A DNA stretch of 64,000 nucleotides, from contig NZ_JANHDM010000002.1 in NCBI RefSeq assembly GCF_024494685.1, positions 124,001 through 188,000 of the forward strand. Direction: 5' to 3'. This document shows positions 5,531-23,274 of the stretch, piece after piece. The notes under the pieces are model-generated. The model was not told the origin of the DNA. It ran no database searches and worked only from the letters and a program-made list of their open reading frames with translations. A program made the translations under genes and the position numbers. How positions within the stretch are numbered: the first letter of the stretch is position 1; every line of letters begins with the position of its first letter. The DNA comes from Halorubrum rubrum (GTDB taxonomy: Archaea; Halobacteriota; Halobacteria; Halobacteriales; Haloferacaceae).

Positions 5531-7693
5531 TCACCCGTCGTCTCCGTCATCGATCCAGGCACCCAACGGCCCGATCCCGTCGCCGGGCGACTCGTCGGCG
5601 TCGACCACCCAGACGTAGCCCTCCCGACCCTCCCCGTCGGCGAACTCGCGCGTCCAGACGAACCCGCCGTCGCCGACTCCGTCGCTCGGATCCGTGGTCC
5701 AGACGAACCCGCCGTCGCCCACGCCGAGCGAGAAGTCCGTCGTCGCGACGAGGCGGCCGGAGGCGGGATCGCCGTCGTCCCCGAACACCCAGACGAATCC
5801 GCCGTCACCCACTCCCACGGAGGGGTCCGTGGTCCAGACGAACCCGCCGTCGCCGACGCCCTCCGAGAAGTCGGTGGTCCACACGAATCCGCCGTCGTCC
5901 ACGCCGTTTCGCGGGTCCGGCGTCCGGAGGAAGCCGCCGACGGCTCCCCCGACTGTCGTCGAGGGCGGTTCCGCCTCCCCTTCCGCGGACGATCCTGTCT
6001 CCACGGACGACTCCGCCTCCGCAAGGGGTCCTCCGGCCGCGGACGAGTCCACCCCCGCGATCCGGGCGATCCAGCGGACCCCGTCGGTGCCGGGCTCCTC
6101 GACGAGGTCGTCGATCCAGTTGAAGTCGTCGACGGCGTCCGGGTCGGGAAGGTCGTCGGCGAACCGGTCGACCCACACGAACCCCCCGGAGTCGCCCGGA
6201 TCCGTCTCCGCGTCGGTCGTCACGTCCGGGGGGTCGCCGGCGGCGGTGCCGGCGGCCGCGACCGAGCCGCCCGACGCCCCGCCGAACCCGCGCCGCTCCA
6301 TCACGCCCCAGGACGTCTCACCGCGGAGGAACTCGACGAGCCCGTGCCAGGCGACCGCCGTCTTCCACTGACGGTAGCCGAAGTTCTCGAGGACGCCGTA
6401 CCACAGCAGCCGGACCACGTCCCTGGGGTCCTCGTAGCGATTGAAGCTCCACACCTCGCTGAACACGCCGAACCACGAGAGGAAGACGCCGACGCCGACG
6501 GTGAGAAGCAGGAACGCGAGGAAGAACTCGACGTTCAAGATCCCGAAGTACCACGCCAGCGGGAGGAGGACGTAGCCGAAGCCCTCGATGAGCGGCCCGA
6601 GCGCCTCCGCGGCGGTGAAGAAGGGCAGGATCGCGGTCCCGACGCGGCCGTAGCGCCGCCTGAAGAACACTCCGCGGTTGGCGACGACCGTCTCGAGCAT
6701 CCCGCGGTACCAGCGGCGTCGCTGGCGCCCGAGCCCCACGAGGGTCTCCGGAACCTCCGTCCACGCGACCGGCTCCGGGAGGAAATCGACCGTGTACTCC
6801 ACCTCCTCGTCGGAGAGGTACCGGTGGAGCCGGACGACCACGTCGAAGTCCTCGGTGACCGTGTCGTGGCGGTAGCCGCCGATCTCGCGGACCCGGTCGG
6901 TTCGGAAGACGCCGAACGCCCCGGAGATGAGCACCAACCCCTTGAGGCGGCTCAACCCGAGCCGGCCGGAGTAGAACGCGCGGAGGTACTCCATCACCTG
7001 GAGTCCGGGCAGCCCGGTCCTCGGGAGGTTGATCTCCTGGACCTCGCCGTCCTCGACGACGCAGTCGTTGGCGACCCGGATCGTCCCCCCGCTGGCGACC
7101 GCCTTCTCGGGCTCCTCGAGGAACGGGCGGACGATCTGGAGCAGGGCGTCCCGGTCGATGACCGTGTCGGAGTCGACCGCACAGAACAGCTCCTGGTCGG
7201 TGAGCCACAGCCCCGCGTTGAGCGCGTCGCTTTTCCCGCCGTTCTCCTTGTCGACGACGAGGAGGTCCTCGTGACGCGTCGAGCGGTACACCCCACGGAT
7301 GGGTTCGGCGGGGACCCCGTAAGGGACCGCCGCGTCGATCCGTTCCAGGTCGAACGCCCCGCGGAGCCGGTCCATCGTGGCGTCCGTCGAGCCGTCGTTG
7401 ACGACGACGACCTCCTGGTCCGGGTAGTTCAGCGTCAGCATCGACCGGACGCTCTCGACGATGGTCGCCGCCTCGTTGTACGCGGGAACGACCATCGCGA
7501 CGCCGGGATAGAAGGGGCTGTCGAACGCCCGGAACGGCGGGCTCCACTCCGACTCGCGCACGCTGTCGCGCAGCTCGAACAGCGCGAGGACGTGGATGAG
7601 GAGGTAGCCCGCGTTGACGAGGAGGTAGTAGCCGACGATGAACACGCCGGATCCGACGACCAGCGCGACGGCGAGGTCCTCGACGACCGTCAT
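5531..7693 (-). CDS. Membrane GT2 glycosyltransferase with C-terminal GGFVW repeats
   Basis: Processive-type family 2 glycosyltransferase of 720 residues, expected to build or transfer a polysaccharide at the membrane. One long N-terminal hydrophobic segment (about 7-40) precedes the catalytic domain, which has VVPAYNE (68-74), VNDGSTD (98-104), AVDSDT (172-177), TEDFD (280-284) and QRRRW (324-328), the D,D,D,QxxRW set of cellulose/hyaluronan-synthase-like enzymes. Further membrane helices lie at about 353-412. The tail from about 500 is acidic and low-complexity with GGFVW at 503, 601, 617, 631, 661 and 677 and GYVW at 692, spaced 14-16 residues apart (or twice that). The ATG at 7693 overlaps the previous gene's stop as ATGA. 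The tail is the odd part; I know no named domain for it. Confidence 0.9.
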   Translation of the reverse strand: MTVVEDLAVALVVGSGVFIVGYYLLVNAGYLLIHVLALFELRDSVRESEWSPPFRAFDSPFYPGVAMVVPAYNEAATIVESVRSMLTLNYPDQEVVVVNDGSTDATMDRLRGAFDLERIDAAVPYGVPAEPIRGVYRSTRHEDLLVVDKENGGKSDALNAGLWLTDQELFCAVDSDTVIDRDALLQIVRPFLEEPEKAVASGGTIRVANDCVVEDGEVQEINLPRTGLPGLQVMEYLRAFYSGRLGLSRLKGLVLISGAFGVFRTDRVREIGGYRHDTVTEDFDVVVRLHRYLSDEEVEYTVDFLPEPVAWTEVPETLVGLGRQRRRWYRGMLETVVANRGVFFRRRYGRVGTAILPFFTAAEALGPLIEGFGYVLLPLAWYFGILNVEFFLAFLLLTVGVGVFLSWFGVFSEVWSFNRYEDPRDVVRLLWYGVLENFGYRQWKTAVAWHGLVEFLRGETSWGVMERRGFGGASGGSVAAAGTAAGDPPDVTTDAETDPGDSGGFVWVDRFADDLPDPDAVDDFNWIDDLVEEPGTDGVRWIARIAGVDSSAAGGPLAEAESSVETGSSAEGEAEPPSTTVGGAVGGFLRTPDPRNGVDDGGFVWTTDFSEGVGDGGFVWTTDPSVGVGDGGFVWVFGDDGDPASGRLVATTDFSLGVGDGGFVWTTDPSDGVGDGGFVWTREFADGEGREGYVWVVDADESPGDGIGPLGAWIDDGDDG

Positions 7694-10929: not shown

Positions 10930-12009
10930 TCACAGCAGGTCGTCGATCTCGTCGTTGCGGAACGCCGCGGCGGGATCCGGCGTCGCCTCCGGCTCGTCGC
11001 GGACGGCCTGTCTGGCGCGCTCGAGGAACTCCTCGACGCGCTTCGAGCGCTCGACGCCCGCGAGCAGTACGACGGCCGCGATCCGATCGGAGTTCATCGG
11101 GAAGTCGCCGCCGCGGACCTGCATCGACCCCGTCTCCTCCTGGAGCCACTTGCGGGCCTTCTCCGCGCCCTTGCGGGAGATCCGGTCCGGGTCGCCGGCG
11201 ACCGCGACGAGCCCGGCGTCGGCGTCGGTGGCGTTCGGCAGCGAGAGGCCGGTCATCACCGCGCTGCGGACCGCGCTCGTCACCGTGTTGACGTTCTCGC
11301 CAGGGTCCTCGGCGGCGGGCGAGGAGGCGTAGCCGACCGCCGCCATCCCGCCGGCCCGCAGCGTGTTGATCACCTCGCTGGTGTCGACGACGGACTCGCC
11401 GACCCCCTGCGTGGCCTCGCCCGCCGCGAGCAGCAGGCCGACGCGTTTCGCCATCGACTCGTTGATCGCGGCGTAGCCGCCCTCGACGCTCTCGCCCGCC
11501 GAGCGCCAGGCGTCGTTGTCGAGGAGGATCGTCGCGTCGGCCTCCCGGACGAGCGTCTTCAGCGACCGGCCGGCGTTCACCTGATACAGCGCTCCCTCGT
11601 CGCGACCGGGAAGCACGCCGAGCGCGTAGATCGGCACGTCGTACACCCGCGAGAGCTCGCGGACGAGCACCGGCGCGCCGCCGGAACCCGTGCCGCCGCC
11701 GAGGCCGGCGACGACGACGACCGCCTCGATCTCGGCGGTCATCCGGGGGGCGAGCGCGTCCAGCACCTCGATGGAGTCCTCGTCCATCACCTCCGCGCCG
11801 AGCTCGTTGTCGCCGCCGACGCCGTGACCGCTCACGCGGGACTGCCCGATGAGAACCGTATCGAGCGGAAGCGGGTCGAGGTCGGCTACGGCGGTGTTGA
11901 CGGCGAGCGCGTCACGGACCGAACCGAACCCCATCTCCGCGTCGAACTCGGAGAGGGCGGTCGTGAGCTTCCCGCCTGCCTGTCCGACGCCGACGAGGAG
12001 GGCCTTCAT
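10930..12009 (-). CDS. cetZ: CetZ tubulin/FtsZ-superfamily GTPase
   Basis: Cytoskeletal GTPase of 359 residues. The N terminus [14 protein letters not shown] and the tubulin signature GGGTGSG at 104-110 identify the superfamily; [21 protein letters not shown] and the GTP-contacting N in LLDNDAW fit the CetZ branch, which controls cell shape and motility in haloarchaea, rather than FtsZ. The C terminus ends in an acidic [10 protein letters not shown] tail, a typical partner-binding peptide. The start at 12009 is favoured over one eight codons upstream because [13 protein letters not shown] aligns with family N termini and a TATA-like GTATTGAT sits about 27 nt before it. Which of the several haloarchaeal CetZ paralogues this is cannot be told from sequence alone. 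Confidence 0.92.
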
Positions 12010-12052
12010 GCGTTCACGATACGTGTCTGACATCAATACTCTTTCCCCCGAC

Positions 12053-12084: not shown

Positions 12085-12630
12085 ATGGCAAACGAGACGA
12101 ACGCGAGCGGATCGCCGGACGACCGTGCCCGCCTCGAGCAACGGCTCGACGCGGTCGAGCGCGCGCTCACCGGGACGGATCGGTCGGTCGCGGGAGTCGT
12201 CGACGGCGCGACGGCCGACGCCGAGCGCGAGGCGATCGCGGAGCGGCTCGACGCGGTCGAGGCGCGGATCGAGGAGCTCGAGGCGGCGACGCAGGCCGTC
12301 CGCGGGTACGCGGGCGCGATCCGTGCGGTCAACCGCGAGGTCGAGCGCCGCGCCGACCTGGCGCTCGCGCGGGCCACGGCCGCCCGAGACGGTGGACCTC
12401 CCGACGCCGATGCGTCGTCCAGCGACGGGATGGTCGGGGGCGTAACCTCCGGAAACGGGATCGACGAGAACGGGATCGACGAGAATCGAACCACCGAGAA
12501 CGACGAGATCCCCGGCGACGACGCGCTCGACGCGGCGATCCCGGACGATGCCCGATCGACGGGAGAGAGATCGGTCGGGAGCACCGAGGAGGAGGCGAGT
12601 CCACTCGAACGGCTTCGTGAGGCCCTGTAA
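12085..12630 (+). CDS. Coiled-coil protein of the pilus-like cluster
   Basis: 181 residues, no signal peptide or membrane segment. Residues about 15-105 are heptad-rich (RLEQRLDAVERAL, ERLDAVEARIEELEAATQAV) and should form a two-stranded coiled coil. The remainder is acidic and disordered, with a short GNGIDENGIDEN direct repeat, and ends with SPLERLREAL, which could be a docking peptide. It is the first of a run of plus-strand genes that includes the PilB-like ATPase and PilC-like protein; proteins of this shape commonly precede the ATPase in haloarchaeal pilus-like clusters. A cytoplasmic adaptor for the ATPase is a reasonable guess, not a demonstrated role. Confidence 0.8.
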   Translation: MANETNASGSPDDRARLEQRLDAVERALTGTDRSVAGVVDGATADAEREAIAERLDAVEARIEELEAATQAVRGYAGAIRAVNREVERRADLALARATAARDGGPPDADASSSDGMVGGVTSGNGIDENGIDENRTTENDEIPGDDALDAAIPDDARSTGERSVGSTEEEASPLERLREAL

Positions 12631-12684
12631 ACTGAACCGGCGTGGGATCGGCCGCGCGACCGCCGACGACGAGGGCGGGAAGCC

Positions 12685-13173
12685 GTGATCCGCGTCGTCC
12701 TGACGGTCCTCCTCGCGGTCGCGCTCCTGACCGCCTCGATGCCGGCGATCGAGGACGCCGGACGAGACACGGTCGTCGAGCGACTCGGAACGGAGGCGAG
12801 CCACATCGAGCGCGCCGCAGGCGGGGTGACCGCCGACTCGGTCGCCGTCGCGGACCCGAGTCTCGCCGCGCGAACGTCCCTCGTCGTGTCCGCGCCGACC
12901 GGGGTCCTCGCGGCCCCGATCGATCGGCTCGCGCTCGCGGATCCGACGCGGACCGACACGACGACCGAGGCCCGCGTCTCCGAGGGAGCCGCCCTCGTGT
13001 ATCGGCTCCGGCACGGGTCGGTTCGACGGGTCTCGATCGTGCCGCCGACGGACGCGATCGGGATCTCCCTCCGCGACGGACCGATCGAACTCGAACCGGA
13101 CGGCGAGACGGAACTCGAGCTTCGGCTGGTCGACGACGGCGGGCCGACGGTCCGGATCGCCCGGGCCGGGTGA
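12685..13173 (+). CDS. Small secreted or membrane-anchored protein of the pilus-like cluster
   Basis: 162 residues starting at a GTG. The N terminus MIRVVLTVLLAVALLTASMPAI is a signal-anchor with almost no preceding charge, and the remainder is a predicted beta-rich extracellular domain (ARTSLVVSAPTGV, EGAALVYRLRHGSVRRVSIVP, ELELRLVDDGG). No catalytic motif is visible. It sits 54 bp after the coiled-coil gene and 60 bp before the ATPase, whose own promoter lies in that gap. The lack of an E5-type pilin motif argues for an accessory envelope protein, not a pilin. Function unknown. Confidence 0.75.
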   Translation: MIRVVLTVLLAVALLTASMPAIEDAGRDTVVERLGTEASHIERAAGGVTADSVAVADPSLAARTSLVVSAPTGVLAAPIDRLALADPTRTDTTTEARVSEGAALVYRLRHGSVRRVSIVPPTDAIGISLRDGPIELEPDGETELELRLVDDGGPTVRIARAG

Positions 13174-13204
13174 CCGGGAACGCCGGATCGTCCCGGACGA
13201 CCCC

Positions 13205-13212
13205 TTATATAC
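13205..13212 (+). promoter_or_regulatory. TATA box of the pilus-like ATPase gene
   Basis: TTATATAC centred 26 nt before the ATG at 13234, giving a leaderless transcript. It is nearly identical in sequence and spacing to the TATA box at 17133-17141 in the same cluster. Confidence 0.8.
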
Positions 13213-13233
13213 GATGTCGCGGCCACGGTCGCC

Positions 13234-15102
13234 ATGAAACTCGATCTCTCCTCGCTCCCCAGGTTCGGAACCGGCGGCGAGTGTACCTGTGACGCGTCGT
13301 TCGAGCGACCCGTCGGAACGGGCGTCGACGACCGCGTCGTCCTCGCGATCGACGCGAACGACTGTCCGGGCGGCGGCGACCTCGCCGAGAGCCCGGCGTG
13401 TCTGGCCGCCGCGATCGAGGCGCTCGCCGACCGCGACGCCGACGTCGTCCGGACCGAACACGCGGGCCGCGAACGCGCTTACACCGGCCGATCGGCCGCG
13501 TGTCTGCTCGCCGCGGGGCGCTTTCGCGAGCGCGTCGAGTTCCACGAAACGCGGCTCGCGGAGCGCGTGGTCCGAGACCCGGTCGGAGCCGCACGGGAGG
13601 CGGCCGGGCGCGCCGGACCGGTCGGGCGGATCGTCGCCGAGACGGGGCTCGAGGAGGCGGTCGCCGGGATCGACCGGACGGCGGACGCGGTCCGGGCGCA
13701 CGTCGGGCCGACCGTGGCGGCGACGCGGGTCGCGGCCGACCCGCCGCCGGGAGCGACGCTCGTCGACCGGTGGAACCTCGAGACGGGCGCGACGGTCAGG
13801 CTCTACGAGGGGACGGGCGCGCTTCGGACGTACCACCTCACGCCGCCGATGGCGGCGTTCGACGCGGACGCGTTCGAGACGCTCGACGCCGCGAGAGAGC
13901 GGCTACTCGCCGACCCGAGAGGCGGCGAGCGGGCACCCGGCCGAGCGGTTCGAGCGGTGGCGGGTCCGGACGACCCCGTCGACGCGCTCGCTGCCACGCT
14001 CCGCCGACACACCAACGGGTACGGCGCGTTCGAACACGTCTTCGCCGACGACCGCGTCAGCGACGCGACCCTCTCCGCGCCGGTCACTGAGAACCCCCTC
14101 CGCGTCGTCCTCGACGGCGAGCGGTGTCAGACGAACGTCAGGCTTCCGCCGGAGGGGGCCGCGACGCTCGCGTCCCGGCTCCGCCGAACGAGCGGTCGGG
14201 CGTTCTCCCGAGCGACGCCGACGCTCGATTCGACCGTCGACGCCGAGTCGGGGACGGTCCGGGTGGCGGCGACGACGGCGCCCGCGAGCGACGGGCTCTC
14301 GTTCACCTTCCGCCGCGGCGACCCGGAGGCCTGGACGCTCGCCCGTCTCGTCGCCGCCGGGACGCTCTCGCCCGCGGCGGCCGGACTCCTCTCGATCGCC
14401 GTCGAGCGCGGCGTCACGGGGCTCGTCGCCGGCGGACGCGGGGCCGGAAAGACGACCGCGCTCGGCTCCCTGTTGTGGGAGCTTCCGCCCGACGCGCGAT
14501 CGATCCTGATCGAGGACACGCCCGAACTCCCCGCGGACGCGCTCGCCGCCGCGGGTAGAGACGTCCAGCGGCTCCGCGTCGGCGACGACGCGGAACCGAC
14601 GCCGACCGAGGCGGTTCGGACCGCGCTCCGGCTCGGGGGCGGGGCCCTGGTCGTCGGCGAGGTTCGCGGCGAGGAGGCGAAGGCGCTGTACGAGGCGATG
14701 CGCGTCGGGGCCGCCGGCGAGACCGTCCTCGGGACGATCCACGGCGAGAACCCGGCGGCGGTCCGCGAACGCGTCGTCACGGACCTCGGCGTGGCCCGCT
14801 CGTCGTTCGCGTCCACGGATCTCCTCGTGCTGTTGGACGATCACCGGGTCGAGACGGTCGTCGAGGTGACCGATCACGACGACGTGGTGAGCTTCGACGC
14901 GCTGTTCGAGCGGACGGTCGACGGGCTCGCGTCCACCGGCCGGATCGGTAGGGGCGAGAGCCGTCTCGTCGACGACCTCGCCGAGACCGAGGAGTCGTAT
15001 GCCGACGTCCGGGAGGCGATCGGTCGACGCGAAGGGCGGATCCGCACGGCATCGACGACCGGACGGACGACGCCCGACCGCTACGCGGGGTGGGGACGGT
15101 GA
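13234..15102 (+). CDS. PilB/VirB11-like type II/IV secretion ATPase
   Basis: Hexameric secretion/assembly ATPase of 622 residues. Walker A is GGRGAGKTT (400-408), the Asp box lies at LIEDTPE (425-431), Walker B at GGGALVVGEVRGE (468-480, catalytic E476) and the His box at TIHGEN (501-506): all parts of the GspE/PilB/ArlI fold. The N-terminal 110 residues carry scattered cysteines (C17, C19, C44, C56, C90), possibly a metal site. It powers pilin or substrate movement through the membrane protein encoded next. The ATG is fixed by a perfect TATA box 26 nt upstream; the stop overlaps the next gene's GTG as GTGA. Confidence 0.93.
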   Translation: MKLDLSSLPRFGTGGECTCDASFERPVGTGVDDRVVLAIDANDCPGGGDLAESPACLAAAIEALADRDADVVRTEHAGRERAYTGRSAACLLAAGRFRERVEFHETRLAERVVRDPVGAAREAAGRAGPVGRIVAETGLEEAVAGIDRTADAVRAHVGPTVAATRVAADPPPGATLVDRWNLETGATVRLYEGTGALRTYHLTPPMAAFDADAFETLDAARERLLADPRGGERAPGRAVRAVAGPDDPVDALAATLRRHTNGYGAFEHVFADDRVSDATLSAPVTENPLRVVLDGERCQTNVRLPPEGAATLASRLRRTSGRAFSRATPTLDSTVDAESGTVRVAATTAPASDGLSFTFRRGDPEAWTLARLVAAGTLSPAAAGLLSIAVERGVTGLVAGGRGAGKTTALGSLLWELPPDARSILIEDTPELPADALAAAGRDVQRLRVGDDAEPTPTEAVRTALRLGGGALVVGEVRGEEAKALYEAMRVGAAGETVLGTIHGENPAAVRERVVTDLGVARSSFASTDLLVLLDDHRVETVVEVTDHDDVVSFDALFERTVDGLASTGRIGRGESRLVDDLAETEESYADVREAIGRREGRIRTASTTGRTTPDRYAGWGR

Positions 15103-17078
15103 CGGAGCCGCGTTCGACTCGACGCGCCGAGGGAATCGCATCGAATCGAAGGGGCGACTCGGGACCGGCCCGGAGCGCGACCGATCGGAAGGACGAGAGA
15201 CCGATCGATCCGGAGATCGAGGGCCCAGCCGAGCGAGACGGTGGCGACGCGACCGCCGAACGATCGACGGTGAGATCCGCGGCCGCGGCGATCGCCGCGT
15301 TCGCGGGCGGGGACGGAGCGTCGGCCGGCGGCGGATCGACCGAAGCGGGATCGCACGAACTCCGACGAGCGATCGCGTTCCTCGAGTGGGAATCGACGGC
15401 CGAACGGGTGATCGAGGCGGGACATCGCGCCGGGATCGGTGCGGGGCTCTGTTTCGTCGTGGCCGGTGTGCTCCTCGCCGGGACCGTCTCGGGATCGCTC
15501 GCGGGCGTCTCGGGCGGACTCGCGGCGATCCACGCGGTACACCGAGGTCCCGTGTGGCTCGCGGCGCTACGGCGAACCCGCGCGCTCGGGGCGACGCCCG
15601 GACTCGTCGGACGCCTCGTCCTCCGGATGCGTCTCGACCCGTCGACGGAGCGCGCGGTGCGGTTCGCCGCGCGGACCGGTCGCGGACCGCTCGCGGAGAA
15701 CCTGGCGCGACACGAACGACGGTGCGTCAACGGCCCGACGAGCGGACTCCGCGAGTTCGCCCGCGAGTGGGGAGCGTGGTTTCCGGCGATCGAACGGGCG
15801 TCGACGCTCGTTCGGACGGCGGCGGCCGCGCCGCCGGAGCGCCGCGGCCGGTGTCTCGATCGGGCGCTCGAGACGACGCTCTCGGGGACGACGGAGCGGC
15901 TGGCCGAGTTCGTCGGGGACGTCCAGGGCCCGGTGTCGGCGCTGTACGCCTTCGGCGTGCTCCTTCCCTTGGCGCTCGTGGCGCTGCTCCCGGCCGCGGC
16001 AGCCTCGGGCGTGCCGATCCCGCCGTCGGCCGTCGCCGGGGGGTATCTGGTAGCGCTTCCCGTCGGTCTCCTCGTCGCGGCCGCGTGGCTCCTCTCGAAG
16101 CGCCCCGTCGCGTTCCCGCCGCCGACGATCCGAAGCGACCATCCCGACGTCCCGGACAGACGTCTCCACGCGGTCGCCGTCGGCGTCGGAACCGGCGTCG
16201 TTGCCGGCGTCGGCTCGGGATCGCTCGTCGCGTCGTGGGCGGCCCCGATCGGCGCGGTCGGCGTCGGGATCGGAGCGGCGCTGGTCGTCGTCGTCCGGCC
16301 GCGGCGAGCGGTGCTCTCGACGGTCACGGCGATCGAGAGCGGCCTCCCCGACGCGATGACGATCGTCGGCGGGGACGTCGCCGAGGGCGTCTCGGTCGAA
16401 CGCGCGGTCGGGAACGCCGGCGACAAGCTCGACGGTGCGACCGGCGAGGTCTTCGAACTCGCCGCACGGCGAAGCGACACCCTTCGCGTCGACGTTCGCG
16501 AGGCGTTTTTGGGTGACGGGGGGCCGGCGGCGACGGTCCCCTCTCCGAGGGTTCAGGGAACCGTCGCCCTGCTGGCGATCGCCGCGCGGGAGGGGCGGCC
16601 GGCCGGGGACGTGCTGTTGGAACTCGCGGACCAGCTCGAGCGGCTTCGGGAGCTGGAACGCGACGCGCGGAGACAGCTCGCGACCGTGACGGGGACGCTG
16701 GCGAACACCGCGGCAGTGTTCGCCCCGCTAGTCGGCGGCGCGACGGTCGCGCTCGCGACCGGCGTCGAGGCGATCGGGACCGGCGGGCTCGAGACGACCG
16801 CCGCGATGGCGAGCGATCCGATCGCGGTCGACGCCGCCGGATCGGTTCCGCGGACCGGGAGCGAAAGCGAGGAAGTCGTGACCGCGCTGTCGGTGCCGGT
16901 CCTCGGTCGGATCGTCGGCGTCTACGTGATCCTCCTCGCCGGGATCCTCACCGCGCTAGGGACGGGACTCGAACGGGGCTTCGACGGGACGCTCGTGGCG
17001 TACCGGATCGGGATCGCGCTGCCGACGGCGACGACGACGTACCTCCTGGCGTTCGCCGCGGCGGGGGCGTTGCTGTAG
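15099..17078 (+). CDS. TadC/PilC-like membrane platform protein
   Basis: 659 residues; polytopic partner of the ATPase, expected to form the inner-membrane platform of the pilus-like machine. About 85 N-terminal residues are hydrophilic and low-complexity. Two type II secretion F-like halves follow, each a helical cytoplasmic block plus membrane helices: first helices near 110-145 and 280-330, then 360-400, then the conserved second block (VTAIESGLPDAMTIVGGDVAEGVS ... AIAAREGRPAGDVLLELADQLERLR), and C-terminal helices. GTG at 15099 is chosen since it overlaps the ATPase stop by four bases; another in-frame GTG lies nine bases upstream. The pairing with the ATPase is the diagnostic core of an archaeal type IV pilus-like system. 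Confidence 0.9.
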   Translation: MTEPRSTRRAEGIASNRRGDSGPARSATDRKDERPIDPEIEGPAERDGGDATAERSTVRSAAAAIAAFAGGDGASAGGGSTEAGSHELRRAIAFLEWESTAERVIEAGHRAGIGAGLCFVVAGVLLAGTVSGSLAGVSGGLAAIHAVHRGPVWLAALRRTRALGATPGLVGRLVLRMRLDPSTERAVRFAARTGRGPLAENLARHERRCVNGPTSGLREFAREWGAWFPAIERASTLVRTAAAAPPERRGRCLDRALETTLSGTTERLAEFVGDVQGPVSALYAFGVLLPLALVALLPAAAASGVPIPPSAVAGGYLVALPVGLLVAAAWLLSKRPVAFPPPTIRSDHPDVPDRRLHAVAVGVGTGVVAGVGSGSLVASWAAPIGAVGVGIGAALVVVVRPRRAVLSTVTAIESGLPDAMTIVGGDVAEGVSVERAVGNAGDKLDGATGEVFELAARRSDTLRVDVREAFLGDGGPAATVPSPRVQGTVALLAIAAREGRPAGDVLLELADQLERLRELERDARRQLATVTGTLANTAAVFAPLVGGATVALATGVEAIGTGGLETTAAMASDPIAVDAAGSVPRTGSESEEVVTALSVPVLGRIVGVYVILLAGILTALGTGLERGFDGTLVAYRIGIALPTATTTYLLAFAAAGALL

Positions 17079-17132
17079 CCCGTTACGACGTGGCGACGCG
17101 TTCGCGACGTGGAGCGATCCGCCGGGCGACGG

Positions 17133-17141
17133 TTTATATAC
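17133..17141 (+). promoter_or_regulatory. TATA box of the pseudopilin-like operon
   Basis: TTTATATAC centred 26 nt before the ATG at 17163. Sequence and spacing match the ATPase promoter at 13205-13212, suggesting two co-expressed transcription units. Confidence 0.8.
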
Positions 17142-17162
17142 CATACCGAGGCCACCCGACCC

Positions 17163-17645
17163 ATGTTCGAGACCCACCTCGACGCCACCTACGCGTGGCT
17201 CGGCCTCGCGCTGGTGAGCGTCGTGACCGTCGGCGTGGTCGCCGCGCTCCCCGCGGCCCCGCCGCCGGACGCGGACGGAATCGCACACACGATCGGAGCG
17301 GTCGCCGACGGCGAGTACGTCTCGACCGCCGAACACGGACTGGCGGCCGACCGGATGCGACTCACACCGCACACGGTCGAACTCGAGAACGGCGGCGGTT
17401 CCGCCCGTTCGGCTCTCCGAGGACCGCCGATAACGCCCGTCGTTCCCGGCGGGACCGCCGTCGACCGACGACTTCGCCGGGTTCTGGACGGCGTTCCGCC
17501 GCGAACCGTGTTCGAGGATCCTGAAGCGTTCTCCGACGCGGCGGCCCAGGCGAGATCGAGGAACCATCGGTGGCGGACCGCCCCACAGCGGCTGACCGTT
17601 CGACAGGTCCGGTACGGAGGAACTCGTGTCACGCTCGTCGGGTGA
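17163..17645 (+). CDS. Pilus-like cluster protein with N-terminal membrane anchor
   Basis: 160 residues. The N terminus MFETHLDATYAWLGLALVSVVTVGVVAALP places a single hydrophobic helix after a short hydrophilic head, as in pilin-like proteins, with the C-terminal domain outside the cell. The domain is unremarkable, containing a conserved-looking VDRRLRRVLDGVPPRTVFED segment and Arg-rich C-terminal strands. It is the first gene of a four-gene run (17163, 17626, 18048, 18594) with overlapping or abutting ends. I recall similar short membrane proteins next to pilus ATPase/platform pairs in other haloarchaea, classed only as domains of unknown function. Confidence 0.75.
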   Translation: MFETHLDATYAWLGLALVSVVTVGVVAALPAAPPPDADGIAHTIGAVADGEYVSTAEHGLAADRMRLTPHTVELENGGGSARSALRGPPITPVVPGGTAVDRRLRRVLDGVPPRTVFEDPEAFSDAAAQARSRNHRWRTAPQRLTVRQVRYGGTRVTLVG

Positions 17646-18051
17646 GCGGCTCGACGGGGCCGACCGCGCCGCGGTCGAGCCGCTCGCCGCACTGGTCGCC
17701 GTGCTCGCCGTCGGCGCGGCCCTCGGTCTGTACGCGACCGCCCTCGACGACGCGACTCCGGATGCGGAAGAACCCGCCGCCGACGTCGTCCTCGACCGGA
17801 TCGAACGCGACGCGACGGTCGGCGGGATCGTCCGTCCGGAGCGCCTGCGTCACCTCGAGGAGGAAACGCCTGCGGTCGTCGAGTTGGAGACGGAGCGGCG
17901 GCGGTGGCGAGTCGGCGTCGGCTCGGTCTCCCCGTCCGCCGGCGGGCGGCTCGACCCCCGATCGCCCGCGGTCGCGCAGCGATCGGTGACGGTGGCCGTC
18001 GCTCCCGGCGAGAACGTTCGTGGCAGACTCCGGCTGGCGGTGCGTCGATGA
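17626..18051 (+). CDS. Pseudopilin-like protein
   Basis: 141 residues, GTG start overlapping the preceding gene by 20 bases. The segment DRAAVEPLAALVAVLAVGAALGLYA has the arrangement of a class III signal: a short charged head, then a hydrophobic helix with Glu near position +5, here as RAAVEPLAAL. This resembles prepilin-peptidase substrates, although the residue at the presumed cleavage site is not the usual Gly. The rest is a small beta-rich domain with VELETERRRWRVGVGSVSP. It is likely a minor pilin-like subunit of the machine encoded upstream; the assignment rests on the N terminus and context. Confidence 0.75.
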   Translation: MSRSSGERLDGADRAAVEPLAALVAVLAVGAALGLYATALDDATPDAEEPAADVVLDRIERDATVGGIVRPERLRHLEEETPAVVELETERRRWRVGVGSVSPSAGGRLDPRSPAVAQRSVTVAVAPGENVRGRLRLAVRR

Positions 18052-18593
18052 CGAGCACCGTTCTCGACGTGACGGTCATGCTGCTCTGTGTCTCCGCGAG
18101 CGTCGTCGCACTCGGGAGCGTCGGAAGTGACTCCGAGACGGCAGGATACGCCGCCTCGGATGCCGCCGACCGGCTCGCGACCGAGACCGCGACGGTGACC
18201 TACGAGGTGAGCGAGGGAGACCACGACTCGCGAACGGTTCACGCGACGCTGGCGGAGCTGCTCGCGACGGCCGTACGGGGACCGCCGGGAACCGACGGCG
18301 AGATCGAAGATCGGTTCCGATCCCGAGTGATAGAACGCGTGACGAACGCGCTCGGCGGGCGAACCCGTGTCGACGTGCGGTACGAGACGGACGACGAGTC
18401 GTCCGGGCCTCACGCTCGAGACGACGACGTTCACGTACGATCCGGCGACGGTGGAGGGGCTTGGACGCTTACAGTCGGGAACGAACCACCCGTGGGTACC
18501 GACGTGACCGCGGCCGTCCTCACACACCCCGGTTCGGAGCGGATCGAAGGGAACGGACGGGGACGATTTCGGATCATCGTGAGGGCATGGTAG
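18048..18593 (+). CDS. Pilus-like cluster protein with N-terminal helix
   Basis: 181 residues, starting at an ATG that overlaps the previous stop (ATGA). The N terminus MTSTVLDVTVMLLCVSASVVALGSV is a hydrophobic helix with an almost uncharged head, followed by an acidic extracellular domain rich in Thr, Asp and Gly (TATVTYEVSEGDHDSRTVHATLAELLATAVRG). No enzymatic motif. The TAG stop directly abuts the ATG of the large downstream protein, so the two are probably translated together and may form a complex. Function unknown. Confidence 0.75.
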   Translation: MTSTVLDVTVMLLCVSASVVALGSVGSDSETAGYAASDAADRLATETATVTYEVSEGDHDSRTVHATLAELLATAVRGPPGTDGEIEDRFRSRVIERVTNALGGRTRVDVRYETDDESSGPHARDDDVHVRSGDGGGAWTLTVGNEPPVGTDVTAAVLTHPGSERIEGNGRGRFRIIVRAW

Positions 18594-21500
18594 ATGGCGG
18601 GTTCACCACGCGGTCGTTCGGTGTCGCTCGCCGACGACGATCGGGCCCGCGTTCCGTTCGCGCTGGTCGGCGTGTTGCTCCTCGTGACCAGTTCGGCGTA
18701 CGCCGCCGGCATCGTGGATCAGGGGCTCGTGAGCGAGGACCGAAGCGTCGAGCGAGCCGTCGAACGCGCCGAGGCGGACGCGACGGCGGCGCTCAGACAC
18801 GCCGCGCGGGAGGCGGCACACGAGGCCGCCGCGAGGCCGGTCACCAAGGCGACGACGGTCGGCGGCGGTGCGGATCCCTCGTGGCGGGCCGCCGGTGGGA
18901 CCGCGACGGACGCAGTCCGTTCCGGTTCGGCCTTCGAGGACGCGTTTCGGATCCGAACGGCGCTCGCCGGCGTGGAGGCGCTGGACGCGGTGACCGCCGA
19001 GGTCGGCGACGTCTCTGCTACCGTCGACTTCGAGCGTATCGACGGTCGGATCGCGCCGAGCGATCTGGAGACGCTCCGCGAGACGGTCCGCGTGAGCGCC
19101 GTCGCGGACGGAACGGCGACCCGCGCGGTCTTCGAGGACGTGACGGTGACCGTGACGCGGCGAGGACGCACCGTCGCCGAACGGACGGAGAACCGAACCG
19201 TCGTCGTTGCCGTGCCGACGTTCGCCGCGCACGAGCGGACCGAACGGTTCGAGACGCGTCTGAACCGCGGTCCCGTCGAAGGACCGGGGCTCGGCCGGCA
19301 ACTGACCGCCAGCATCTATCCGATCGCGTGGGCGCGGGGGTACGGCCAGTACGCGCGTGCACCGATCCAGAACGTGATCGCGAACCGGCACGTCGAGCTG
19401 TCGACGAACGCTGGGATCGTCAGAACCCAGCGGGACGTGTTCGGCACGAGCGACCCGGACGCACGCGGCGGCGTCGCCGAAGCGACGGCGAAAACCGGAG
19501 TGACCGATCTCCTCGCGCCGACGGACCTGGACGAGTCGGCGTGGAGCGATCGCGTCCTCGACGCGCCGGCGCCGGACTCGAAGACCGGAGCAGACGGGTT
19601 CGCCACGGCGAGGAACCACTCCGACGAGACGACATCGATCTCGGTTGGCCACGCGGCCGACGTGGCTGCCGTGTCGGTCCACGACGACCTCGAGGATGAG
19701 ATTCGAGACAGCTACCGCGTGGAGGCGTCGCTCGACGTCTCTGCAGACCGGTTCGTCGATGGCGGCCGACCGCGACCGCCGCGGCCGAGCGGCGGTGCGG
19801 GCAGGTGGCAGCGCGTCGGCGTGAGCGTCGACGAGACGACGCGCGTCGTCCCCGGTGAGGAGGTCCCGACGGGCGTCCCGTCCGGCACCGTCGAGTCCGG
19901 CGAGGAGGTCGAGTTCGGCTCGGCGAGTCGAGAGGTTCGGGTCGAACGGGTCGTGACCGGGCGATGGAAGCGGGTCGTCCGGCGAAAGGTCGTCGTCGAA
20001 CCGGCGGAGGTGGGTCCGAATGGGACCGTGCTGGATCCGGCGACCTACGGGACGCGTGAGGTGGTGGTCGACCGGGAGACGACGCGGGCGACCGCGACCG
20101 ACCGATACCGCGTCTCGGTCGACGTGAGCGGGAGATACGAGCCGCGAGACCGCGCACCCGACCGGCCCACCGCGACGTTCGGTGCCGGACGCGGAGCCGC
20201 CGGGATCGACCTCTCCGGAACGCCCGACGCCGCCCGGTCGGACCTCGGCGTCGACGACGCTCGCGACGTCGACCGTCTCGCTCACGACGCGGTCGATCGC
20301 GGTGGGGTCGAACGATCGACGGTGGTGGTCGGCGAGCGGTCGGAGAGAGCGGTCGATCGAGTCAGATCCGACCTCAACGACCTTCGAGAGGCGGTCCGCG
20401 GGATCGACTCCGAGCAATCCATGGAGGAGATGGCGGTCGGCGAGGCGGATCCGTACGGCGGGCTCGCCGACACGCTCCGCGACCGCCGCCGCGACCTCGT
20501 GGATGCGCCGCGAACCTACGACGGCGCAGTCGATCGGGCGCGGATCTCCGTTCGGATCGCCTATCTGGAGGCGGTCGTCGACGAGCTAGAGTCGGCGAGC
20601 GGGGACGAGGAGGTCACCACCGACGCGTTCCTCGAACGAGTGGAGGACGCGTTCGGCGGACCGTCGATCGGAGAGACCATCGCCAGCCGCGAGGCCGCGC
20701 GCGACACGGAAGCGTACCGGATCGGCGAGGACGGTCCCGGCGGCTCCGTCGAATTGACGCCGAACGCCTCACCCGGATACCTCCCGCGGACCGCCGTCGA
20801 TGGGGCGAGCGTCGAGGCGGTCGACGGAACGACGACCCGGCCGCTCGCCGTTCGAAACCTCAACTACGTGACGGTCCCGTACGGCGACGTGGCGAGCGGC
20901 GTCGTCGAACGCGTCCTCGGAAGCGGCGACAGCGTGCGGATCGGCACCGCCGGACGCGTTCTTCTCGCGGCCGATCGATCGCTCGTCGGTCGCGACGACC
21001 CGGATCTCCGTGCCGACCGGGACGAACTCGCCGAGCGGGTCGAATCGGCGAGAGGGATCGTCGATCGCGAACTGGTCGCCGCACTCGGCGAGCGGAGCAC
21101 GCTGACGCGCGACGAACGGCGGTCGATCGTCGAGTCAGTGGCCGCGGAGTACGGTTCGAGGGGATCGCGTGCCGTCGCCATCGGTGACGGAGAGTACGCG
21201 GACCGGATCGCCGCCGAGACCGCAAGGGTCGAGTCGCTCTCGGACGGGCAGGAGGGAGCGCTCGCCGCGCGGCTCCGCGTCTCGCTCATGGAGGCGACCG
21301 GTCGGGACGCCGTTCGGATCCCGGCGAGGTTCGTCGACGGCCCAGCAGAGACGGTACGCGGCCACGTCCGGAGCGAACTCGAGGGAACGGTCGAGGACGA
21401 ACTGCGGCGCGGCGGCGAGGCGGCCGTCGAGCGCTGGGCGTCGGACTCCGATCGGGCCGTCGCGCGCTGGGCGAGAGAGCCCAACCGTAGCGTCGGCGCG

Positions 21501-21806
21501 GGTCTTCCAGTCGCTCCCGTTCCGGGGTACTGGGTGGCGACGGTCAACGCGTGGCGCGTGGAGGCGCGCGGCGAGTACCCGCGATTCACGCTGTCCGGCG
21601 ACGTCGGGACGCCGGGTCGTCCCTTCGAGTACGTTCGCGAGGAGTCGACGGTGACCGTCGACGTCGGGGGCGAGCGAGTCCAGCTGGGTCGAACGGAGCC
21701 GGTGCGGTTCGAGACCGAGACGGTGGTCGTCGTCGCGGTTCCCGCGGGGCCGCCGGGCGTCGGCGACGTGAACGGAGTGCGGGACGAGACGTCTCCCGGC
21801 TGGTGA
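18594..21806 (+). CDS. Very large extracellular protein of the pilus-like cluster
   Basis: 1070 residues. After a short basic/acidic head (RGRSVSLADDDRARVP) one hydrophobic helix, FALVGVLLLVTSSAYAAG, precedes a long extracellular region, so the layout is a pseudopilin-like anchor carrying a giant ectodomain. The ectodomain alternates Ala/Arg/Glu helical segments (for example 45-75 and 590-690) with beta-rich Thr/Val blocks (DVTVTVTRRGRTVAERTENRTVVVAVP). One conserved-looking stretch reads SIYPIAWARGYGQYARAP, followed by IQNVIANRHVELSTNAGI. The C-terminal part ends with FEYVREESTVTVDVGGERVQ and no sortase or archaeosortase tail. It is the least understood and most distinctive component of the cluster. 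Confidence 0.85.
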   Translation: MAGSPRGRSVSLADDDRARVPFALVGVLLLVTSSAYAAGIVDQGLVSEDRSVERAVERAEADATAALRHAAREAAHEAAARPVTKATTVGGGADPSWRAAGGTATDAVRSGSAFEDAFRIRTALAGVEALDAVTAEVGDVSATVDFERIDGRIAPSDLETLRETVRVSAVADGTATRAVFEDVTVTVTRRGRTVAERTENRTVVVAVPTFAAHERTERFETRLNRGPVEGPGLGRQLTASIYPIAWARGYGQYARAPIQNVIANRHVELSTNAGIVRTQRDVFGTSDPDARGGVAEATAKTGVTDLLAPTDLDESAWSDRVLDAPAPDSKTGADGFATARNHSDETTSISVGHAADVAAVSVHDDLEDEIRDSYRVEASLDVSADRFVDGGRPRPPRPSGGAGRWQRVGVSVDETTRVVPGEEVPTGVPSGTVESGEEVEFGSASREVRVERVVTGRWKRVVRRKVVVEPAEVGPNGTVLDPATYGTREVVVDRETTRATATDRYRVSVDVSGRYEPRDRAPDRPTATFGAGRGAAGIDLSGTPDAARSDLGVDDARDVDRLAHDAVDRGGVERSTVVVGERSERAVDRVRSDLNDLREAVRGIDSEQSMEEMAVGEADPYGGLADTLRDRRRDLVDAPRTYDGAVDRARISVRIAYLEAVVDELESASGDEEVTTDAFLERVEDAFGGPSIGETIASREAARDTEAYRIGEDGPGGSVELTPNASPGYLPRTAVDGASVEAVDGTTTRPLAVRNLNYVTVPYGDVASGVVERVLGSGDSVRIGTAGRVLLAADRSLVGRDDPDLRADRDELAERVESARGIVDRELVAALGERSTLTRDERRSIVESVAAEYGSRGSRAVAIGDGEYADRIAAETARVESLSDGQEGALAARLRVSLMEATGRDAVRIPARFVDGPAETVRGHVRSELEGTVEDELRRGGEAAVERWASDSDRAVARWAREPNRSVGAGLPVAPVPGYWVATVNAWRVEARGEYPRFTLSGDVGTPGRPFEYVREESTVTVDVGGERVQLGRTEPVRFETETVVVVAVPAGPPGVGDVNGVRDETSPGW

Positions 21807-21874
21807 GCGCGGGGAGCGAGACGACGAATGCCGCCGATCGGAGGCGTTTTGGGACGCGACCGCCGATCGCGGGT

Positions 21875-22375
21875 ATGTTCCATGAGGTCGTCGAGGGGTC
21901 GGGCGGACCCGCCTCGATCGACGGCGAGGAGACCGGCGGAGGCGAAGGATCCGAAGGGGAGGACGGCGAGGGGGTCGCGGCGGCCGCGTTGCTGACGGCC
22001 TTCGAGACGATGTTGGTCGAGGCGGTCGACGAGGTCGAGTCGACCGGTCGCGCCGGCGTCGACGACGGCACGACCCTCGATCCGGCGACGGTCGAGACGA
22101 TCGGCGACGGCGACGCCGCGACCCTCACTGTCGAGGAGGCCGCGGCGGTCCTCGCGGCCGCCGACGGCCGCGACGCCGACGCGATGGTCGCCGAGCTCCG
22201 GGATCACCTCCTGATGGGGATGGCGACGGCGGTGCTCGACGTCGACACGATCGCGGCCTCGATCGACGCCGATCTCACCGGCCAGGAGGTCCAGCAGGTC
22301 CTCGAGGGGCGCGCGGCGATGACGCTCGAGCAGCTCGCGGAGGTCATGGCGGTCGTCGAGACGCGGAAGCCATGA
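21875..22375 (+). CDS. Hypothetical acidic helical protein
   Basis: 166 residues, soluble, Ala/Asp/Glu-rich. After a Gly/Glu/Asp linker (about 8-32) come four to five amphipathic helices, including a LTAFETMLVEAVDEVES segment and a LTLEQLAEVMAVVE end. No known motif is visible. A promoter-like GCGTTTTGG lies 26 nt before the ATG, so it may not be co-transcribed with the pilus-like genes upstream. Its stop overlaps the start of the following SDR gene as ATGA, which couples those two. Confidence 0.7.
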   Translation: MFHEVVEGSGGPASIDGEETGGGEGSEGEDGEGVAAAALLTAFETMLVEAVDEVESTGRAGVDDGTTLDPATVETIGDGDAATLTVEEAAAVLAAADGRDADAMVAELRDHLLMGMATAVLDVDTIAASIDADLTGQEVQQVLEGRAAMTLEQLAEVMAVVETRKP

Positions 22376-23274
22376 GGGTCGTGATCGTCGGCTGCGGCTA
22401 CGTCGGGCTGGAGCTCGCGCGGGGGCTTGCCGCCCGCGACCACGACGTGATCGGCGTCCGGCGGTCGGACGACGGGCTCGACGCGATCGAGGCAGTCGAC
22501 GAGGGCGTCGAGGCGGTTCGGGCGGACGCGACCGATCCCGAATCGCTCGCCGCGCTTCCCGACGTGGACGCGGTCGTGTTCGCGGCCAGCTCGGGCGGCC
22601 GAGGCGCGGAGGCGGCCCGCGAGGTCTACGTCGACGGACTCCGGAACGTCGTCGAGGAGTACGGCGACCGAACCCGAGCGCCCGACCGGCTGGTGTACAC
22701 GTCGTCGACCGGCGTGTACGGCGATCACGGCGGCGCGTGGGTCGACGAGGGGACGCCGATCGAGCCGACGACCGAGAAGACGCGGGTGCTCGCCGAGGCC
22801 GAACGCGTCGCGCTCGAGGACGCGGCCGCGGCCGGGATCGACGGCACGGTCGCACGGTTCGCGGGGCTGTACGGGCCGGATCGGTATCGGCTCGACCGGT
22901 ACCTCGAGGGACCGGTGACCGCCGGCTACCTCAACATGGTTCACCGCGACGACGCCGCGGGTGCGATACGGTTCCTCCTCGAAAGCGACGCCGCCCGCGG
23001 CGAACCCGTGGTCGTCGTCGACGACGAGCCGGTCGAGAAACACGCGTTCGCCGACTGGCTCGCCGACGAGTGCGGAGTCGACCGTCCGGAGAAGCGTTCG
23101 AAGGAGACGCGGATCGCCGCGGGGGACCTCTCTCCGGCGGCAGAACGCCGGATCCGAACGAGCAAGCGCTGCTCGAACGACCGGCTTCGAGAACTCGGAT
23201 ACGCGTTCGCGTACCCGACGTTCCGCGAGGGGTACCGCGACGCGGTCGACGGGTTCCGCCGCGCGCGAGAGTGA
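22372..23274 (+). CDS. NAD(P)-dependent SDR/epimerase-like protein, atypical
   Basis: 300 residues of the extended short-chain dehydrogenase/NAD-dependent epimerase family. The dinucleotide loop is VVIVGCGYVGLELARGL (GxGxxG form) and VVFAAS follows the fourth strand; YTSSTGVYGDHGG supplies the catalytic Ser/Thr region. The usual YxxxK pair is not intact: a Lys is present in EPTTEKTRV, but the position of the Tyr holds Pro. The protein may therefore bind NAD(P) without classical reductase chemistry, as in YeeZ-like relatives. It is coupled to the acidic helical protein upstream by an ATGA overlap. Substrate unknown. Confidence 0.85.
   Translation: MRVVIVGCGYVGLELARGLAARDHDVIGVRRSDDGLDAIEAVDEGVEAVRADATDPESLAALPDVDAVVFAASSGGRGAEAAREVYVDGLRNVVEEYGDRTRAPDRLVYTSSTGVYGDHGGAWVDEGTPIEPTTEKTRVLAEAERVALEDAAAAGIDGTVARFAGLYGPDRYRLDRYLEGPVTAGYLNMVHRDDAAGAIRFLLESDAARGEPVVVVDDEPVEKHAFADWLADECGVDRPEKRSKETRIAAGDLSPAAERRIRTSKRCSNDRLRELGYAFAYPTFREGYRDAVDGFRRARE

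Follow-up and report, generated by a model that had tools for sequence, protein, structure and literature searches.

The stretch of Halorubrum rubrum DNA analysed here (64,000 nucleotides of contig NZ_JANHDM010000002.1, hereafter the window) contains, at positions 12085-21806, a type IV pilus system that is already published, as halobacterial subclade 4F and as the pilB2/C2 regulon beside cetZ2. This assignment rests on the content of the locus and on the cysteine pattern of its ATPase, and within the published class the locus is unremarkable. What we add concerns DUF7286, the 1070-residue protein encoded last: on balance, we consider it probable that the locus is a subclade 4F archaeal type IV pilus in which DUF7286 is a giant minor pilin placed at the tip, likely as an adhesin or receptor, on a shaft made of a pilin supplied in trans. 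A type IV pilus-like machine had been proposed earlier from the letters of this stretch (the original prediction). The gene content (an assembly ATPase with its platform), the class III (prepilin-type) motifs, the conserved operon and its co-inheritance with the ATPase give good support to this proposal of one pilus machine, while processing, filament assembly, tip position and adhesive role are what we infer for it.

From left to right, the window carries a divergent CetZ gene, followed by genes for DUF7310, DUF7311, a PilB-type ATPase, a PilC/TadC-type platform, DUF7283, DUF7285, DUF7284, DUF7286, DUF5791 and an epimerase. The ATPase (13234-15102, plus strand; T2SSE, E 5.9e-18) and the membrane platform (15090-17078, plus strand; T2SSF, E 1.3e-5; several hydrophobic segments) were found where a secretion ATPase and a TadC/PilC-like platform had been predicted, the T2SSF score of the platform (25.6 bits) lying barely above the cut-off of 25.2. 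The ATPase is of the PilB/VirB11 family, has an intact Walker A motif (GGRGAGKTT), and its nearest solved chains are 2oap, CpaF and FlaI. An archaellum was rejected, since the ATPase scored 76.7 bits with respect to an archaellum cut-off of 550 and no archaellum gene lies beside the locus. In the N-terminal domain of the ATPase, C17, C19, C44 and C56 (CxC...C...C) are invariant across the aligned sequences, and the pattern, encoded in window region 13234-13420, is recognisable in methanogen relatives too; it may represent a metal or disulfide site in the cytoplasmic motor.

Makarova et al. (2016, PMC4858521) describe subclade 4F by a Cys-rich N-terminal ATPase domain, a coiled-coil protein, predicted pilins and an FtsZ-like gene. 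The locus has the four invariant cysteines, CetZ as the FtsZ-like gene and a coiled-coil cytoplasmic protein, DUF7310 (12085-12630, plus strand; PF23991, E 8.2e-26; 0 hydrophobic segments), which is probably the arCOG07564 component of the subclade. According to Brown and Duggin (2023, PMC9856176), the pilB2/C2 regulon adjoins cetZ2 in Haloferacales and Halobacteriales, and following this literature the CetZ of the window would belong to the CetZ2 subfamily. H. volcanii PilB2 was placed in 4C by another study (PMC6491452), which conflicts with the description of the locus in PMC4858521. The features of an archaeal type IV pilus are likewise present, namely an ATPase with intact Walker motifs, a platform, class III pilins with their helix and a prepilin peptidase in the genome. 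The domains of unknown function expected by the original prediction were indeed found, in that all the "unknown" proteins match Pfam DUFs (7310, 7311, 7283, 7285, 7284 and 7286), and NCBIfam gave no name for any DUF protein scanned; having been published as 4F and as the pilB2/C2 regulon, the system is nevertheless less mysterious than had been supposed.

When gene order was compared across haloarchaea (81 loci, counting the window and 80 that were retrieved; some contigs end early), the conserved co-occurrence that had been anticipated was observed: the DUF7283-DUF7285-DUF7284-DUF7286 module is present, in the same order, in 81/81 loci, PilC in 77 and PilB in 73. Together with the full-length match of DUF7286 to its family (PF23957, 1050 bits, positions 1-1000 of 1000), this is beyond chance. 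The commonest order, seen in 38 loci, is CetZ, DUF7310, PilB, PilC, DUF7283, DUF7285, DUF7284, DUF7286, DUF5791, epimerase; in four Halorussus-type loci (L096, L104, L109, L118) PilB and PilC are not immediately 5' of the module. Separately, the divergent haloarchaea G077 and G116 were seen to carry a second DUF7283-7286 module (L163, L164, L165), without PilB/PilC nearby, and one 4F-type ATPase. Among 292 Halobacteria genomes, 224 contain DUF7286, 218 contain DUF7283 and 217 both. DUF7286 is also present beyond Halobacteria, in two families of the same phylum, with a positive Methanosarcina acetivorans control; it is on these families and this control that the label methanogens rests here. 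In one of the two families the genes follow each other as pilin P1, pilin P2, DUF7285, DUF7284, DUF7286, the other being partly divergent, and PilB/PilC are not near the methanogen DUF7286 genes. Directly 3' of DUF7286, both loci that were checked encode a MAST-domain protein of the sarcinarray family (TIGR04209; L151 13415-13984, L155 14289-14900), which hints at another surface partner.

Co-inheritance was assessed mainly by searching genomes with an alignment of the 4F-type ATPase. This ATPase was found, with at least 366 bits, in 19/19 genomes containing DUF7286 (4 divergent haloarchaea and 15 methanogens) and in 0/36 genomes without it, where the best score was 160 bits or less (Fisher p ~4e-15, ignoring relatedness). 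In those 15 methanogens the ATPase and DUF7286 are encoded at separate loci, and yet they are co-present. Three further DUF7286-bearing haloarchaea also carry the 4F-type ATPase, and in five genomes with only remnants of DUF7286 it is gone. In one genome (G266) the ATPase, DUF7286 and DUF7283 are all truncated or weak, an apparent co-decay of the locus, and the species of one genus (g25) divide into those with both ATPase and DUF7286 and those with neither. It is this concerted loss that speaks most strongly for one machine. Neither in the 81 loci nor in the co-inheritance genomes do the four genes mostly occur without the ATPase.

DUF7286 (18594-21806, plus strand), which is closest to its counterparts in Halorubrum cibi (88%) and H. 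aquaticum (84%), has a single hydrophobic segment (residues 20-42) and no C-terminal membrane segment. Directly before this helix lies a class III motif, R-[A/G]-x-[V/I]-P-[F/Y], cut after [A/G]. The R-[A/G] pair occupies positions -2/-1 in 86/93 matched sequences, methanogens included (RA-YIPFA, cut after RA), and in the window protein cleavage is predicted between A18 and R19 (after base 18647); R17, R19, P21, F22, A23, L24 and G26 are invariant across 57 sequences. No acidic residue occurs in mature positions +1 to +10 in any of 87 DUF7286 sequences, unlike DUF7285 (64/78) and DUF7283 (81/81); Asp at +6 of DUF7284 was counted with a pattern requiring Asp and is not used as evidence. DUF7286 has, in other words, a prepilin-type N-terminus that lacks an acidic residue near +5, as do proposed tip subunits of the ComZ/GspK kind, and it is for this reason, by analogy only, that we place it at the tip, where it could act as a filament cap. 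The giant extracellular component of the original prediction is more plausibly a prepilin-type subunit than a generic component of that sort.

The AlphaFold model of DUF7286 (mean pLDDT 76.8, pTM 0.51) contains long strands of beta structure (438-515), helical regions and, at the C-terminus, a beta domain; the orientation of the domains is unreliable. A PDB sequence search with this protein gave zero relatives, Pfam gave neither a vWA nor another named domain for it, and a literature search retrieved no published role. Pfam, NCBIfam and PDB searches, by sequence and by fold, thus place the giant in no characterised unrelated family.

Several points weigh against our interpretation. The genomes compared are not phylogenetically independent, and no major pilin is encoded at the locus. 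The +1 residue of DUF7286 is usually Arg, which is atypical of a class III site. In the AlphaFold model the N-terminal helix (residues 1-47) has low confidence and a recognised pilin fold is missing, no PDB match having reached E < 0.3; little can be concluded from this absence, given how poorly those 47 residues are modelled. Finally, DUF7283, DUF7311 and the Halorubrum-type DUF7284 have no leader and may therefore escape processing.

The atypical Arg, together with the size of DUF7286, would also suit a membrane-anchored S-layer-like or scaffold protein standing around the pilus base, outside the filament, and an S-layer-like protein is frequent in subclade 4F loci according to PMC4858521. 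We regard this explanation as unlikely, considering that the class III motif is kept across two distant groups and that DUF7286 has no C-terminal membrane segment.

As for the smaller subunits, the overlapping or abutting genes for single-helix proteins that had been predicted to end with the 1070-residue protein are those at 17163-21806, and in each of DUF7283, DUF7285, DUF7284 and DUF7286 the only hydrophobic segment is the N-terminal one. A fifth gene of this kind had been overlooked, that of the pilin-like DUF7311 (12685-13173, plus strand; single N-terminal helix; PF23993, E 5.1e-32). A methanogen pilin profile brought it to light, by hitting the interval that separates DUF7310 from the ATPase in another haloarchaeon; the gene lies just 5' of PilB in 69/70 loci and matches the first pilin (P1) of the methanogen operon (hhalign probability 95.8, E 7.7e-9). 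The third gene of that operon matches DUF7285 (hhalign E 1.1e-6), and the pairing of pilin P2 with DUF7283 was not adopted, the match being weak (hhalign E 0.008, probability 5%). DUF7283 (17163-17645, plus strand; PF23954, E 4.8e-52) consists of a single N-terminal helix and a compact alpha/beta domain, whose AlphaFold model (pLDDT 87.9) matched no PDB structure in the fold search. DUF7285 (17626-18051, plus strand; PF23956, E 5.7e-24) is prepilin-like, with a class III site DRA/AVEPLAAL (cut between A and A) that includes the pseudopilin-like VEPLAAL start already pointed out. DUF7284 (18048-18593, plus strand; PF23955, E 1.7e-20) is pilin-like and starts over the preceding stop codon (ATGA overlap).

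Class III leaders are retained by DUF7285 and DUF7286, and no class III site was seen at the N-termini of DUF7283 or haloarchaeal DUF7311 across the loci. The N-terminus of DUF7284 reads RA-ISTVLD (cut after RA) in many haloarchaea, with a similar site in methanogens, and is leaderless (M-TSTVLD) in Halorubrum, Halobellus, Haloferax and relatives (window and loci L044-L123), where the protein is a candidate leaderless pilin. DUF7283, haloarchaeal DUF7311 and Halorubrum-type DUF7284 may be either unprocessed anchored partners or subunits made already mature. A bolder view, which we hold as doubtful, is that DUF7286, in haloarchaea and methanogens alike, is the founding member of a class of ~1000-1400-residue pilus subunits whose folds resemble no solved structure, and that haloarchaeal DUF7311, DUF7283 and Halorubrum-type DUF7284 lost their leader and are made mature, partly bypassing the prepilin peptidase.

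A search of the genome (3.2 Mb, haloarchaeal) gave one prepilin peptidase (Peptidase_A24, contig C19) and six Pilin_N matches, every one away from the contig of the locus, in agreement with the prediction that neither would be nearby. In the mechanism that we propose, the peptidase would first cut at least DUF7285 and DUF7286; PilB and PilC would then extract the small subunits DUF7311, DUF7283, DUF7285 and DUF7284, along with the giant DUF7286, from the membrane. The N-terminal helix of DUF7286 would top the minor-pilin complex, as is thought for GspK and ComZ, so that its outward body of ~1000 residues would be borne by the pilus tip and serve as adhesin or receptor, and the shaft would be formed by a major pilin encoded in trans.

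The lack of a major pilin at the locus, the location of all six Pilin_N genes elsewhere and a minor-pilin set with the largest subunit last could instead point to a type II secretion-like pseudopilus, in which a short filament that spans the S-layer space expels cargo and DUF7286 is a GspK-like cap or cargo receptor. This is quite improbable: such a device would have neither outer membrane nor secretin to work with, the module has no conserved cargo gene beside it, save the methanogen sarcinarray/MAST protein, and the closest ATPases are of pilus and archaellum types.

With respect to expression, a TATA-like box is found ~30 bases 5' of DUF7283 in 55/78 loci (2.4 expected), 5' of PilB in 31/60 (1.7 expected) and 5' of DUF7310 in 12/62 (1.3 expected), and none was found in the same comparison 5' of DUF7311, PilC, DUF7285, DUF7284 or DUF7286. 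In the window, such boxes lie at 13205-13211, ~29 bases 5' of the ATPase ATG, and at 17133-17140, ~30 bases 5' of the first ATG of the pilin operon (both plus strand). This distribution suggests that DUF7310-DUF7311, PilB-PilC and the four-gene module are three transcription units, in keeping with the different fates that they meet in other genomes. That in methanogens and some haloarchaea the module lies apart from PilB/PilC, and that pilB1-C1 and pilB3-C3 show limited cross-complementation (PMC6491452), might suggest a shared surface-display set serving other ATPases as well rather than one dedicated machine, but the strictness with which it is present or lost along with one ATPase subfamily makes this very unlikely.

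Around the pilus genes, CetZ, a tubulin-like GTPase, is encoded on the minus strand (10930-12027, start codon approximate; CetZ_C, E 1.2e-64; Tubulin, E 1.2e-27). On the other side, DUF5791 (21863-22375, plus strand, start approximate; PF19104, E 3.6e-40) and an NAD-dependent epimerase (22372-23274, plus strand; Epimerase, E 1.8e-14) are not thought to be part of the machine; the genes flanking cetZ2, including the epimerase, persist where the pilus genes are absent, as PMC9856176 reports. Gene calls at 12642-13292, 17090-17524 and 17570-17989 and an extension at 17904-18047 were rejected as Arg-rich wrong frames. Elsewhere in the window (5531-6100, minus strand), a glycosyltransferase-like membrane protein has C-terminal tandem repeats, DGGFVWTTDFS-GVG.

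To our knowledge, the placing of DUF7286 by its class III N-terminus and its strict co-inheritance with the ATPase is new. The protein occurs in about three quarters of the sampled Halobacteria genomes (224/292) and in methanogens, and with this placement six families of unknown function become components of a single machine open to testing, in a group to which Haloferax, a genus with good genetics, belongs. If the tip position is correct, DUF7286 would be among the largest pilin-type subunits and a candidate haloarchaeal surface receptor or adhesin.

Among known systems, the minor pseudopilins GspH-I-J-K of type II secretion have their largest subunit encoded last and without the N-terminal acidic residue. 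The locus resembles them in its several minor subunits, the largest being last and devoid of this residue, but it gives no sequence or fold match to them and has no outer-membrane parts of type II secretion. With the published 4F and pilB2/C2 loci (PMC4858521, PMC9856176) it shares the Cys-rich ATPase, TadC, the coiled coil, the pilin-like set, the CetZ neighbour and the epimerase flank, whereas the excerpts of these papers contain neither the giant as a prepilin-type subunit nor its co-inheritance with an unlinked methanogen ATPase. ComZ of Thermus thermophilus, encoded with PilA1-3, is a large pilin-like protein without Glu5, structurally closest to GspK, for which a pilus-tip location was argued (PMC6561018). 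It is smaller than DUF7286, which gives no match to its beta-solenoid inserted in a pilin fold, but both are oversized, are encoded with smaller minor pilins, lack Glu5 and have a proposed tip position. Finally, CpaL/TadG of the Tad pilus (PMC12607857) differs in its vWA domain, for which DUF7286 gave no match, and resembles DUF7286 in joining a minor pilin module to a large outward domain predicted to lie at the tip.

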